From Planctomycetota bacterium (GTDB lineage Bacteria > Planctomycetota > Phycisphaerae > Sedimentisphaerales > Anaerohalosphaeraceae), in the NCBI GenBank assembly GCA_029552545.1, contig JAKPDO010000051.1, positions 1 through 64,000 of the forward strand: a stretch of 64,000 nucleotides of DNA, read 5' to 3'. Below, piece after piece: positions 16,952 to 22,070 of the stretch. The notes beneath the pieces were generated by a model. The model was not told the DNA's origin. It did no database searches and saw only the letters and a list, made by a program, of their open reading frames with translations. The position numbers and the translations under genes are program-made. Position 1 is the first letter of the stretch. Every line of letters begins with the position of its first letter.

Positions 16952-17011
16952 TCAGAAAGAGGAGAAAAAATAAGACATACTCTATATATTTTTCGCACAG
17001 AACCCAATAGA

Positions 17012-17027
17012 TGTGATAAATATCACA
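17012..17027. promoter_or_regulatory. CRP/FNR-family binding site
   Basis: TGTGATAAATATCACA fits the TGTGA-N6-TCACA consensus of CRP-type regulators without a mismatch. Its centre is about 60 bases before the predicted start of the hydrogenase operon, the classic class I activator position. It also lies ~104 bases upstream of the divergent rhamnosidase start. Confidence 0.6.
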
Positions 17028-17043
17028 TAAAATAAATTGTCTA

Positions 17044-17072
17044 TTGAAATAATTATTCTATATTTGTATAAT
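17044..17072 (+). promoter_or_regulatory. Near-consensus sigma-70 promoter of the hydrogenase operon
   Basis: TTGAAA (17044-17049), exactly 17 bases, perfect TATAAT (17067-17072). The start is predicted near 17079, 39 bases before the first ATG. TTGTGAA directly after the -10 resembles half of a Rex operator. Confidence 0.65.
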
Positions 17073-17117
17073 ATTGTGAAATACATAACACATTTTTGAC
17101 GAAAAGACGTATCAGAA

Positions 17118-17393
17118 ATGATGAGTGAAAGAGACCTGAAAAAACCTATCGAAGTGGTTTTTTGTATGGGCAGCAGCTGCTTTAGCCGCGGCAACGGAAA
17201 AACCCTGTCTTTCATTCAGAACTATTTGAAAGAAAACGGTTTGGAAAACCAGGTCCAGTTAAAAGGTGTGCTTTGTCAGGGAAAGTGCCAAAACGGACCC
17301 AATATAACCATTAACGGCACCCTCTACCAAACCACCGAGCCCGGCGTTGTGATTGATTTGATTCGGCATCATCTTGCTGCGGGGCCGCAGTAA
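17118..17393 (+). CDS. Thioredoxin-like [2Fe-2S] protein of hydrogenase locus
   Basis: 91 aa; translation may begin at 17118 or at the next codon, also ATG. Cysteines C16 and C21 (FCMGSSC), then C53 and C57 (CQGKC), give the C-x4-C...C-x3-C pattern of the thioredoxin-like 2Fe-2S fold of NuoE and HydC-type subunits. It is probably a small electron carrier or subunit for the hydrogenase proteins encoded next. It is the first gene of a five-gene run with 4-base overlaps or short gaps. A second copy of this type is at 20347. Confidence 0.85.
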   Translation: MMSERDLKKPIEVVFCMGSSCFSRGNGKTLSFIQNYLKENGLENQVQLKGVLCQGKCQNGPNITINGTLYQTTEPGVVIDLIRHHLAAGPQ

Positions 17394-17408: not shown

Positions 17409-19145
17409 ATGAATCCGCTTCACCCGATTTACACGGAAACAACCCGATGCCAGGACTGCTACAAGTGTCTGCGGCAGTGCCCGGTCAAGGCCATTGACAT
17501 CCGCAATGGCCACGCCAGCGTAATGCCGGAGATGTGTGTCCTGTGCGGCTCCTGCGTGCAGACCTGCCCGATGGGCGCCAAACGCATTCGAAGCGACCTC
17601 GAACGGGCCAAGATGCTCCTGCGTCTGAAAAAGCAGGTGATTGCCTCGATTGCCCCCAGTTTTGCCGCCGAATTCCCGGAGATTCAGCCGGGCCAACTGA
17701 CTGCGGCCCTCAAGGCCCTCGGATTTGCCGCCGTCAGCGAAACAGCCCTCGGAGCCGAAGAGGTCAGTGCCGCCGCCGCTCGGATGATGGAAACCGAGGG
17801 GGGACTGGCGATTTCCTCCGCCTGTCCAGTCGTAGTCGAGCTGATTCATCGGTATTATCCGCAATACAGCTCTGCCGTTTGCCGAATGCTCAGCCCTGTG
17901 CTGGCTCACTGCAAACTGCTCCGCCGCGAATTCGGACCGGATATCGGCATCGTTTTCTTCAGCCCCTGCATAGCCAAAAAAATCGAATCCGACCGAAACC
18001 CCGACCTGCTGGATGTGGCCCTGACCTTCAGCGAACTTCGCCAGTGGCTTCAGGAAGAGGGCATTGACCCGGCATCCGCAGTGCCCGAAGCCGAGGATGC
18101 TTTTGTCCCTCGCCTGGCCCGGGATGGTTCGCTGTATCCGATTGACGGCGGGATGCTGGCCGGCATCCGCTCCAACAGCCCGGTCACCAGCCGGCATCTG
18201 ATGGCCTTCAGCGGGATGTCCGCCATCCAAAGGGCCCTCGAAGACCTTCAGGAGCTCGGCGGACAGGAACCGCTCTTTCTGGAACTGCTGGCCTGTGAGG
18301 GCGGCTGCATCAACGGCCCGCAAATCAGCAATCCGGGCCGAACTATCGTCAAACGAACACGGATTATCGACACGTTCGAAAACCGCCGGGGCCTGCCTGA
18401 GCCGTCCGCCGGTCTGGCCATCGAACACAGCTGGCGGCTCGAACCGGTCCGGCAGAGCTGCTATCCCCCTGAACAGATACAGGAAGCCCTCAAGCGCGTC
18501 GGCAAATTCGGGCCGGAAGACGAACTGAACTGCGGCGGGTGCGGCTATGACAGCTGCCGACAGTTTGCCAAGGCCCTGCTGGACGGACGCGCGGAGGAAA
18601 CGATGTGCATGGGCTATATGCGGCAGCTGGCCCAGAAACAGGCCGATGCCCTGCTGCGGGCTATGCCCTCCGGGGTTGTCATTGTCGATGAACACCTGCA
18701 GATTCTCGAAAGCAACCGGCGCTTCTCCGAACTGATGGGCCCGGAGGCGGTCCGGGCTTATGAAGCACGGCCGCATCTGACCGGCGCCGCCCTGCACAAA
18801 ATCGTTCCGTTCGCCGACTTGTTTGCGCAGGTGCTTCAAAGCGGCGCCGCCACGCTCGAAAAAGAAGTCAAGGTCGGAAAAACCATCTACCACGTGACCC
18901 TTTTTACGATTGAAAAACACCGGCGCATCGGCGGCATCATTCAGGATGTGACGCTGCCGACCGTCCGGAAAGAACAGATTATCAACAAGGCGCGCGAAGT
19001 CATTTCCCGCAACCTCGAAACCGTTCAGAAAATCGCCTATCTACTGGGAGAAAATGCCGCCGAGTCGGAAGTGATTCTGAATTCGATTGTGGAGATGTTT
19101 CAGCCCGCCGCGGATGCCAAACCGCGGCCTTCGGATGAACCATGA
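17409..19145 (+). CDS. Sensory-type [FeFe] hydrogenase with PAS domain
   Basis: 578 aa. Two N-terminal 4Fe-4S clusters (CQDCYKCLRQCP, CVLCGSCVQTCP) precede the H-cluster domain with SSACP (A138-C139), FSPCIAKK (C187) and LLACEGGC (C296, C300). All four H-cluster cysteines are kept. The residue before the first, normally the proton-relay Cys of catalytic enzymes, is Ala; to my knowledge the sensory HydS enzymes show the same change. A further cluster motif (CGGCGYDSC, ~375-383) and a PAS domain (~425-520) follow, then a coiled-coil-like helical tail. No kinase domain is present. Its stop overlaps the SpoIIE phosphatase start (ATGA, 19142-19145). The likely role is to sense H2 or redox state and pass the signal to that phosphatase (inference). 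It resembles the PAS-containing protein of hfs-type loci in thermophilic Firmicutes. Confidence 0.9.
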   Translation: MNPLHPIYTETTRCQDCYKCLRQCPVKAIDIRNGHASVMPEMCVLCGSCVQTCPMGAKRIRSDLERAKMLLRLKKQVIASIAPSFAAEFPEIQPGQLTAALKALGFAAVSETALGAEEVSAAAARMMETEGGLAISSACPVVVELIHRYYPQYSSAVCRMLSPVLAHCKLLRREFGPDIGIVFFSPCIAKKIESDRNPDLLDVALTFSELRQWLQEEGIDPASAVPEAEDAFVPRLARDGSLYPIDGGMLAGIRSNSPVTSRHLMAFSGMSAIQRALEDLQELGGQEPLFLELLACEGGCINGPQISNPGRTIVKRTRIIDTFENRRGLPEPSAGLAIEHSWRLEPVRQSCYPPEQIQEALKRVGKFGPEDELNCGGCGYDSCRQFAKALLDGRAEETMCMGYMRQLAQKQADALLRAMPSGVVIVDEHLQILESNRRFSELMGPEAVRAYEARPHLTGAALHKIVPFADLFAQVLQSGAATLEKEVKVGKTIYHVTLFTIEKHRRIGGIIQDVTLPTVRKEQIINKAREVISRNLETVQKIAYLLGENAAESEVILNSIVEMFQPAADAKPRPSDEP

Positions 19146-20326
19146 ACAACCGTTTTTTCATCGAAGTGGACTGTGCACGGCAGAACAAACACGGCCAGGG
19201 GGCCCCGGGCGATGTCTTTCTGTCCCAGCGGGACCCGGACGAGGGCCGTATTGTCTGTGTGCTGGCCGACGGGCTGGGCAGCGGCATCAAGGCCAATGTC
19301 CTGGCAACCCTGACGGCCACGATGGCCCTCAAGTATGTCCGCTCGGATATGGACATCTGCAAGGCCGCCGGTGTGATTATGTCCACGCTGCCGGTCTGCA
19401 GCGAACGAAAAATCGGCTACTCGACGTTCACCATTGCCGATATTCACCCGGACGGCCGTATCCGGATGATGGAATACGACAATCCGCCGGCGGTTCTGCT
19501 GGAGGGACCGACCGTCCTGCCGCTGGAGAAAAAACCGATGGAAATCGAAACGGCTCATCTCGGGCGCCGTCCGCTTTTCTACAGCGCCTTTCAGGCCCGC
19601 CGGGAGATGCGTCTGGTGCTGTTTTCCGACGGCCTGTCCCAGGCGGGGATGGGACGCCCGCGCACCCCGCTGGGCTGGACGGCGGAAAAAGCCGTTCTGT
19701 TTCTCCGCGAACAGATTCGCCGTCTGCCGAACATCTCCGCGCGACAGCTTTGCCGCGCGGCCGTGACGGAGGCCCTCCGCCAGGACCAGTTCCAGGCCCA
19801 GGACGACATCAGCTGCGCTGTGATTTATTTTCGCCGGCCCCGGAAGCTGCTCGTGGTCACCGGGCCTCCGATTGACCGCAAAAAGGATGCCCAGCTGGCG
19901 GCCCGAGTCGCCGAATTCGACGGACGCAAGGTCATCTGCGGCGGCACAACCGCCAACCTCATTGCGCGGGAACTGGGCCGAACCGTCCGGGTGGATTTGA
20001 GCTTCCTGGACCCAGAGATTCCGCCCGTCTCGACGCTCGAAGGGGTGGACCTGGTTACGGAAGGCACGCTGACGATGTCCAGAACCGCTCAGCTGCTCGA
20101 ACAGAATCAGGAGCCCGACACGAGCCGGCCGAACGCCGCCGTGCGGCTGATGAATATTCTGCTCGAGAGCGACCAGATTGAATTTGTCGTCGGAACCAAA
20201 ATCAACGAGGCCCATCAGGACCCGAATCTGCCGGTGGAGCTGGATATCCGCCGCAACCTGATTCGGCGGATTGTCTCGCTGCTCAATGAAAAATATATGA
20301 AACAGGCCTCGATTGAATTCATTTGA
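19142..20326 (+). CDS. SpoIIE-family (PP2C-type) protein phosphatase
   Basis: 394 aa. The N-terminal ~225 residues are a SpoIIE/PP2C core with metal-ligand motifs LADGLGSG (D43), VLFSDGLSQ and AQDDISC. Residues ~230-390 form an extra domain conserved in the versions that sit beside [FeFe] hydrogenases (VTGPPIDRKKD, ICGGTTANLIAREL). SpoIIE phosphatases usually dephosphorylate anti-sigma antagonists, but no such partner is encoded nearby. There are no membrane segments, so the protein is cytoplasmic. It overlaps the sensor hydrogenase gene by 4 bases, implying a fixed stoichiometry or complex with it. Confidence 0.88.
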   Translation: MNNRFFIEVDCARQNKHGQGAPGDVFLSQRDPDEGRIVCVLADGLGSGIKANVLATLTATMALKYVRSDMDICKAAGVIMSTLPVCSERKIGYSTFTIADIHPDGRIRMMEYDNPPAVLLEGPTVLPLEKKPMEIETAHLGRRPLFYSAFQARREMRLVLFSDGLSQAGMGRPRTPLGWTAEKAVLFLREQIRRLPNISARQLCRAAVTEALRQDQFQAQDDISCAVIYFRRPRKLLVVTGPPIDRKKDAQLAARVAEFDGRKVICGGTTANLIARELGRTVRVDLSFLDPEIPPVSTLEGVDLVTEGTLTMSRTAQLLEQNQEPDTSRPNAAVRLMNILLESDQIEFVVGTKINEAHQDPNLPVELDIRRNLIRRIVSLLNEKYMKQASIEFI

Positions 20327-20346
20327 GAACGGAAAGGAACAGGGGT

Positions 20347-20619
20347 ATGAAACCGCTTACGATTACCATCTGTACGGGAACGACCTGCTATGTGATGGGC
20401 TCCGGATATCTGCTTTCGCTTCAGGAGCAGATTGAGTCGGCCTGCTCGAGGCCGGTGGAGATTGTCGGCTCCTCCTGCCTGGGGCTGTGCAAAGACGGCC
20501 AGTACGGCCGAGCCCCCTTTGTGCAGATCGGCTCAACCGTGATTGCCGAAGCCACAGCGGAAAAAATTATCGAAACCCTTAAACAGCAGACTGCCCGCAA
20601 ACCCATGGAGCAGATATGA
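20347..20619 (+). CDS. Second thioredoxin-like [2Fe-2S] protein
   Basis: 90 aa. C9 and C14 (CTGTTC), then C44 and C48 (CLGLCKDG), match the 2Fe-2S thioredoxin fold. The ATG at 20347 is preferred to a TTG further up because AAAGGA lies ~9 bases before it. It overlaps the catalytic hydrogenase gene by ATGA (20616-20619), so it is probably that enzyme's electron-transfer partner. It is only distantly similar to the first copy at 17118. Confidence 0.82.
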   Translation: MKPLTITICTGTTCYVMGSGYLLSLQEQIESACSRPVEIVGSSCLGLCKDGQYGRAPFVQIGSTVIAEATAEKIIETLKQQTARKPMEQI

Positions 20620-22070
20620 ACGGCGATAACAATGTTCAGCGAATCAAACGGCGGCTTCTGATTGAAACAGCGGCGCTGGCCTTTCGGGGCCGCCTGGCCG
20701 AAGAAATCGATGCCCTGCCGGTCAAACTTTTCCCGAAGGGGTCAACGCCCACGCGCTGCTGCATTTACAAATCCCGTGCGATTACCCGATACCGGCTGAT
20801 GGCTGTTCTCGGATACAGCACGCAGGATGAAACGGACGAGTGCACGCCGCTGTCGGAGTATGTCCGGCGTGCTGAAGAATCCCGGCCCCGAAGCGGTCCG
20901 ATTCTGACCGTCATCAACGAGGCCTGCAGCGCCTGTCTGAAAGGACGCCACTACGTTACCAATGTCTGCCGCGGCTGCGTCGCCCGTCCCTGCGTAACCA
21001 ACTGTCCCAAACAGGCGGTGCAAATCATCAGCGGCCGGGCCCGAATCGACGAAGAACGGTGCGTCAACTGCGGCCTGTGTCTCCAGCAGTGCCCCTACCA
21101 CGCCATCGTCTATGTGCCGATTCCCTGCGAAGAGGTCTGCCCCGTCGGGGCGATTCGCAAGGGCCCGGACGGTCACGAACAGATTGACGAGGACAAATGC
21201 ATCGACTGCGGCAAGTGCCTGCAGGCCTGCCCCTTTGCCGCAATTGTCGAGCGCTCCCAGATAGTGGATGTAATCCGCCGACTGCGCCAGCAAAAGCCCG
21301 TCGCCGCGCTGCTGGCTCCGGCCGTGGCCGGCCAGTTTCCTCAGGAGTTTTCCAAACTGGTCAGCGCTCTATTGAAAATGGGCTTTACCCGGGTGGTGGA
21401 GGTGGCCGCCGGAGCGGAGATGACCGCCCGGCACGAAAGCCGCGAGCTGCAGGAGAAGATAGGCGCCGGACAGGCCTTTCTGACCAGCAGCTGCTGTCCG
21501 GCGTATGTGCAGGCCGTCCGCAAGCACATCCCCGCGCTGGCTCCGTTTGTCTCCCAGACGCCCTCGCCGATGCATTTTACGGCCCAGCAGGTCAAACAGC
21601 AGCAGCCGGATATGCTGACGGTCTTCATCGGCCCGTGCATCGCCAAGCGCCGTGAGGCCGCGGACAACCCCTACATCGATTATGTCTTGACCACCGATGA
21701 GCTGGGAGCCATGCTCGTGGCGGCCGGGATTGAATTGGCCGATTGTCCGCCCGCGGAATGGACCGAAAGCCCGCTGCCCCAGGCCCGCGTCTTTGCCGTC
21801 AGCGGCGGCGTGGCCGAAACCCTTCGCACCGTCAGCCCGGAGCCGGACGCCGTCCGTCCGATGCTCATCGACGGGCTGGACAAAAAGTCGCTCAAACTCC
21901 TGTCCCTCCTGCCTGCCCGCGGCACCGGAGGGGCCAATTTCGTCGAAGTGATGAGCTGTGCCGGCGGCTGTGTGGCCGGGCCGTGCAACATCAGCCAGCC
22001 CAAAACCGCCGCCCGAAAGGTCCGCGACTTTGCAGGCCTGCAAAGTCCGGCTGCACGAGCCGTCTCCTGA
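20616..22070 (+). CDS. Catalytic-type monomeric [FeFe] hydrogenase (group B-like)
   Basis: 484 aa. The start (KGSTPTRCCIYKSRAITRYR, then LSEYVRRAEE) is characteristic of the group B1/B3 family. N-terminal clusters include CSACLKGRHYVTNVCRGC, CVNCGLCLQQCP and CIDCGKCLQACP. The H-cluster region has TSSCCPAY (C293 proton relay, C294 ligand), GPCIAKRRE (C341) and MSCAGGCVAGP (C448, C452). With both L1 cysteines present it should reduce protons or oxidise H2 using ferredoxin. It is the last gene in the coupled run. Maturases HydE, HydF and HydG are not in the window. Confidence 0.92.
   Translation: MNGDNNVQRIKRRLLIETAALAFRGRLAEEIDALPVKLFPKGSTPTRCCIYKSRAITRYRLMAVLGYSTQDETDECTPLSEYVRRAEESRPRSGPILTVINEACSACLKGRHYVTNVCRGCVARPCVTNCPKQAVQIISGRARIDEERCVNCGLCLQQCPYHAIVYVPIPCEEVCPVGAIRKGPDGHEQIDEDKCIDCGKCLQACPFAAIVERSQIVDVIRRLRQQKPVAALLAPAVAGQFPQEFSKLVSALLKMGFTRVVEVAAGAEMTARHESRELQEKIGAGQAFLTSSCCPAYVQAVRKHIPALAPFVSQTPSPMHFTAQQVKQQQPDMLTVFIGPCIAKRREAADNPYIDYVLTTDELGAMLVAAGIELADCPPAEWTESPLPQARVFAVSGGVAETLRTVSPEPDAVRPMLIDGLDKKSLKLLSLLPARGTGGANFVEVMSCAGGCVAGPCNISQPKTAARKVRDFAGLQSPAARAVS

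Follow-up and report, generated by a model that had tools for sequence, protein, structure and literature searches.

Two candidate Rex operators upstream of a sensory [FeFe]-hydrogenase operon in a Planctomycetota bacterium

The operon and its upstream region

We analysed a 64,000-nucleotide stretch (the window) from the genome of a Planctomycetota bacterium (3,093,821 bases in 58 contigs, 99.97% complete). It carries an operon of hydrogenase and signalling genes that diverges from an alpha-L-rhamnosidase gene across a 249-bp intergenic region, in which two candidate Rex-type operators, O1 and O2, lie beside two overlapping candidate promoters, P1 and P2:

13620 to 16868, minus strand: divergent alpha-L-rhamnosidase, beside the operon within the genus only
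17011 to 17028, plus strand: O1, candidate Rex-type operator ATGTGATAAATATCACAT (sequence scan, matrix rank, conservation)
17037 to 17042, plus strand: candidate -35 of P1, TTGTCT, reading TTGACT in the relatives G117 and G119 (promoter scan, comparison)
17044 to 17049, plus strand: candidate -35 of P2, the promoter of a first-pass annotation, TTGAAA (promoter scan)
17059 to 17064, plus strand: candidate -10 of P1, TATATT, 16-nt spacer (promoter scan)
17067 to 17072, plus strand: candidate -10 of P2, TATAAT, 17-nt spacer, the same in G117 and G119
17074 to 17091, plus strand: O2, candidate Rex-type operator TTGTGAAATACATAACAC over the predicted start (matrix rank, conservation)
17118 to 17393, plus strand: thioredoxin-like [2Fe-2S] ferredoxin, first operon gene (PF01257, E 4e-9)
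17409 to 19145, plus strand: HydS-like sensory [FeFe] hydrogenase with 4Fe-4S, H-cluster and FeS domains (PF02906, PF04060)
19142 to 20326, plus strand: SpoIIE/PP2C-type phosphatase (PF07228, E 3.3e-12)
20323 to 20619, plus strand: second thioredoxin-like ferredoxin (PF01257, E 1.3e-6)
20616 to 22070, plus strand: group B1 monomeric [FeFe] hydrogenase (TIGR04105, 519 bits, cut-off 450)

In HydS, the proton-transfer Cys is replaced by Ala (SSACP; A138, invariant in all seven aligned sequences), a residue that about 43% of the sensory enzymes are reported to have at this position (PMC10055695). All 71 named loci with 1.5 kb or more of downstream DNA, which span many phyla, have a SpoIIE-type phosphatase gene after hydS. 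The non-Cys residue at the proton-transfer position and the linked signalling gene place HydS with the sensory (group C-like) enzymes, and the Ala together with the conserved phosphatase partner marks the window operon as mainly a sensor operon. A PAS domain in HydS was not matched by Pfam at E ≤ 0.001; one stretch resembles PAS by eye only. The catalytic HydABC, assigned to group A6 by NCBIfam, is encoded elsewhere (C50:142152).

The first-pass annotation had suggested that a regulator bound between the divergent genes might link sugar supply with hydrogen metabolism. The rhamnosidase gene adjoins the operon in G117 and G119 and is absent from the fetched stretches of five relatives (G096, G086, G103, G147 and G143), so that a conserved sugar-hydrogen link through the site is unsupported.

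Two boxes with a Rex-type core

The exact palindrome TGTGATAAATATCACA, at 17012 to 17027, lies upstream of a TTGAAA-17-TATAAT promoter, and both elements are present as first annotated. Its TGTGA-N6-TCACA core is perfect, and against the extended Rex consensus TTGTGAANNNNTTCACAA O1 matches 10 of 14 positions, with its four mismatches at positions 1, 7, 12 and 18. This consensus, that of Ravcheev 2012 as quoted in other papers, contains the same core (PMC5317091, PMC6391272, PMC2883068); S. aureus Rex binds TGTGAn6TCACA, with lower affinity reported to accompany changes at positions 1 and 7 (PMC2883068). O2 comes closer to the extended consensus (11 of 14 matching, three mismatches), and its core TGTGAAATACATAACA, at 17075 to 17090, has one mismatch to TGTGA-N6-TCACA. 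The earlier suspicion that TTGTGAA over the start could be a Rex half-site is borne out in that it forms part of this one-mismatch site. O1 and O2 begin 63 bp apart here, in G117 and in G119, and G096 has a weaker second box (four mismatches) 61 bp from its first. Four bases past O2, TTGACG at 17096 to 17101 repeats the box-then-TTGAC layout; we rejected it as a promoter, as its -10 would be inside the first gene and G119 reads TTAGCG there.

The perfect site is above chance by genome counts and by shuffling. Exact TGTGA-N6-TCACA occurs at two places in the genome, against none for a backwards control pattern; the other place (C5:38285; positions 1501 to 1516 of stretch L001) is within a called gene and is probably due to chance. 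A perfect site arose in 2 of 5000 dinucleotide shuffles of the intergenic region, and none of the 5000 held a pair of sites each within one mismatch, such as the real intergenic has. With at most one mismatch allowed, the genome holds 47 places against 16 for the backwards control. A rough codon-based gene caller placed 14 of the 47 outside genes; the two window sites are among these, as is the rex1 site described below. A scan allowing three mismatches to the Rex consensus (175 places against 64 in the control) was too noisy for naming targets.

We also ranked the window sites with motif models built from the promoters of rex2, a regulatory gene described below, in other genomes. An 18-mer matrix built on rex2 boxes from 10 further genomes, which comprise 8 distinct sequences, placed O2 (17074; 21.95 bits) first and O1 (17011; 20.8 bits) second over both strands of the window, the next match scoring 15.9 bits; column-permuted matrices put their top match in the AT-rich intergenic in 145 of 1000 cases and both top matches there in 21 of 1000. 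A 55-position model from eight rex2 promoters, none of them from this genome and omitting those of G146 and G147, in which MAFFT misaligned the -35, was run over 10 genomes. It gave seven matches at E ≤ 10 in this genome (G000), among them rex2 (5.9e-7), C33:2441 (0.804), two on C56 (1.92 and 2.17) and the region upstream of rex1 (5.63). The O2 match (17072 to 17100, E 0.347) came second after rex2, and O1 was matched at 17012 to 17064 (E 2.97); both E-values are weak alone. In G117, the second- and third-ranked matches of the model are the two hydS sites, and in G096 the hydS promoter and a site before a HydC-like gene of the same operon each scored 3.4e-4, ranking below rex2 and one other match.

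Two further boxes were seen in relatives. In G096 (C118:50058-50121; L149), a Rex-like box TTGCGAAAAAAATCACAA stands before TTGACA with E 2.8e-4 by the rex2 promoter model, ahead of genes that by eye resemble a metal regulator and then FeoB. In G103 (C1:1498165; L160), a box TTTGTGAAAAAAATCGCAA lies 74 bp upstream of a long gene, of which 483 codons fall in the stretch.

Rex proteins and boxes at their own genes

CRP and Rex operators share TGTGA-N6-TCACA, which makes a CRP reading tempting here but mistaken; the choice between them turns on which regulators the genome encodes. The cNMP-binding domain PF00027, which would mark the CRP/FNR-type regulator proposed in the first-pass annotation, had no match in a profile search of this genome and none in any of 13 genomes (this one and 12 relatives, including every one of the set that keeps the palindrome); a control search was positive in 10 of 14 known genomes. 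Lack of a CRP/FNR-family protein was a refuting condition that the first-pass annotation had itself set. PF13545 matches were by eye metal-regulator-like (156 aa), replication-initiator-like and DeoR-like proteins, with no CRP among them. Two Rex proteins were found, as a check proposed at first pass had sought, each with a winged-helix domain (PF06971) and a Rossmann NAD(H) domain (PF02629), scoring above the cut-off of the NCBIfam Rex models and matching PDB Rex chains at 3e-41 and 1.2e-38.

Both genes sit with hydrogenases. The first, rex1, heads a [NiFe]-hydrogenase operon (L103, 5481 to 10656) with genes for Fer4_22 and flavin reductase-like proteins, the small and large subunits and a maturation protease; rex2 stands first in the [FeFe] HydABC operon and is followed by a histidine kinase gene ahead of HydABC. 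Candidate boxes lie at rex1 and rex2 themselves, as autoregulation would have it. The rex1 promoter has TTGTGAATGTGAGCACAA at its start, and its box TTGTGAWTGTGAGCACAA is present in 6 of 6 genus genomes examined (as TTGTGATTGTGAGCACAA in G118). At rex2, all 11 full-length loci examined (a partial rex of G096, L131, left out) have a box upstream of the -35; those of G096, G103, G117, G119, G146 and G147 were found by a rule of at most three mismatches, the other five being chosen by where they lie in the orthologous promoter. The rex2 box of G103, TTGTGAAAAACATCACAA, has a perfect TGTGA-N6-TCACA core.

Conservation near and far

A HydS match at E ≤ 1e-80 occurs in 22 of 161 genomes of the order. 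The ten core positions of O1 are perfect in G117, G119 and G096 and show one mismatch in G086, and O2 is conserved in G117 and G119. In G103, G143, G146 and G147, a rex gene directly precedes the genes for the thioredoxin-like ferredoxin and HydS; two boxes stand before this rex in G103, and no box with at most three mismatches was found upstream of it in the other three.

Among 80 named HydS loci from many phyla (L169 to L248), 13 have a rex within the fetched stretch; in 12 of these it lies upstream in the same orientation. The box itself is mostly absent from distant HydS operons. Once five loci whose upstream DNA was too short or too rich in N were dropped, a box with at most two mismatches was present in the 470 bp scanned at 4 of 75, against 0 and 1 for the controls. 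L169 and L170, which make up half of these four, are apparently G096 and G086 over again, since they share sequence and Rex-search places with them; the others are a Candidatus Auribacter MAG and a Spirochaeta locus, and both genomes encode Rex.

A model of Rex control

We consider it very probable that O1 and O2 are two Rex operators controlling the sensory [FeFe]-hydrogenase/phosphatase operon by NADH/NAD+. This reading of the DNA sequence is favoured because PF00027 is absent, the genome has two Rex genes, the boxes are conserved, their motif is shared with rex promoters and rex genes are linked to HydS loci. From the same observations we infer Rex binding, repression as its sign, the response to NADH, the Rex that acts and the transcription start. 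At low NADH/NAD+, one Rex dimer would occupy O1 immediately before the -35 and another O2 at the start site, excluding RNA polymerase and repressing the operon. A rise in NADH would release Rex, and the operon would then be expressed alongside the two other Rex-linked operons, those of HydABC and the [NiFe] hydrogenase. The acting regulator is probably Rex2, because a box of this kind also lies in the rex2 promoter. Several observations count against Rex control: the four departures of O1 from the extended consensus, the Rex-like box of G086 in a genome (91% complete) with no PF06971 match, the lack of a box before rex in the rex-led operons of G143, G146 and G147, the scarcity of boxes at the named loci (4 of 75), the weak E-values of O1 and O2 in the genome scan, and the 21 of 1000 permuted matrices that also placed both top matches in this intergenic.

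The position of the boxes bears on how Rex would act. The promoter scanner scored the P2 pair 11 of 12 and the P1 pair 9 of 12. With P2, whose start is predicted 7 nt past the -10, O1 is centred about 60 nt upstream; with P1, its centre is at about -52. Class I activation, as read in the first-pass annotation, would call for a centre near -61.5; the -60 of P2 comes close to it, but this spacing is not conserved. In 17 of 19 box-bearing promoters, from two different operons and including that of the Candidatus Auribacter MAG, the box is centred -49 to -52 relative to the sigma70-like pair that scores best. The exceptions, this genome and G117, have their best pair at -60 but a further pair at about -52, formed by a second TTGTCT or TTGACT at a gap of 8; the boxes of relatives lie near -50, 5 to 8 nt upstream of a TTGACW element. 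The comparison covered promoters chosen for having a box and was set apart from the rex-led operons (G103, with boxes; G143, G146 and G147, without) and from the other named loci. An unusually fixed operator position in this lineage is suggestive and falls short of proof, because the promoters were selected for the box and the rex2 boxes were partly picked by position.

This regularity is what speaks for Rex at O1 acting as an activator, or as a regulator that contacts polymerase from near -50, with O2 giving repression. We judge this unlikely: S. aureus Rex is described as a repressor with sites in promoters or a few bp away (PMC2883068), an activator would be unneeded because the -35 (TTGACA or TTGACT) is already good, and position-picking of rex2 boxes in orthologous promoters favours equal spacing. 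A broader conjecture, which we hold to be rather unlikely, is that a Rex box is fixed at H2-sensor and H2-producing operons alike (centre near -50, 5 to 8 nt before the -35), where Rex would contact polymerase, activating or position-dependently repressing, and that a second box 61 to 63 bp, or about six turns, downstream would close one NADH/H2-sensing circuit.

It is decidedly unlikely that another palindrome-binding repressor occupies O1 and that the likeness to a Rex box is accidental. The four mismatches to the extended consensus fit such a repressor, as does a Rex-like box in G086, a 91% complete genome with no PF06971 match; against it, O1 and O2 match the rex2 boxes of relatives, rex genes are linked to HydS loci and the geometry is shared. 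The class I CRP/FNR activator first proposed has in its favour a perfect core whose centre precedes the start given by the best-scoring promoter pair by about 60 nt, and inner flanks (GAT...ATC) that we take to be nearer the CRP than the Rex consensus, but with PF00027 absent from all 13 genomes and the -60 spacing not kept in relatives it is highly improbable, surviving only if the gene for such a regulator lies in sequence missing from the assembly or its product has diverged beyond what PF00027 can recognise.

Relation to known Rex systems

The closest parallel to O1 is the S. aureus Rex operator, which has the same TGTGA-N6-TCACA core, an A/T-only spacer and an adjoining sigma70-type promoter (PMC2883068). 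O1 differs from it in the bases at positions 1, 7, 12 and 18, belongs to a different phylum and is a predicted binding site; the window, unlike that operator, has two boxes 63 bp apart. In Caldithrix abyssi, a rex-hydABC locus with the candidate box cTGTGAATCAATTCACAt links Rex to an electron-bifurcating [FeFe] hydrogenase, as at rex2 here, and this box shares T at position 18 with O1 (PMC5317091). The window operon differs from that locus in having no rex of its own and in encoding a sensory hydrogenase, a phosphatase and a group B1 enzyme. The Rex regulon of Caldicellulosiruptor bescii takes in [FeFe]- and [NiFe]-hydrogenase genes and rex, as appears to be the case here, whereas a sensory hydrogenase operon is not mentioned in the portions of that report consulted (PMC6391272). 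Conversely, the group C cluster of Ruminococcus albus places an H-cluster sensor and a Ser/Thr phosphatase beside hydrogenase genes, as here, but the control proposed in the accessible portion of its description is H2 sensing, with Rex not named (PMC6776011).

Implications

A literature search, with subscription sources mostly outside it, found no paper listed as dealing with Rex in Planctomycetota or with a sensory [FeFe]-hydrogenase operon under Rex. The window operon would be an addition to the Rex regulon, itself an already known type of regulation. On this reading, each of the three hydrogenase loci examined here, the H2 sensor included, should respond to NADH/NAD+. If so, the supply of the sensor would depend on the redox state.
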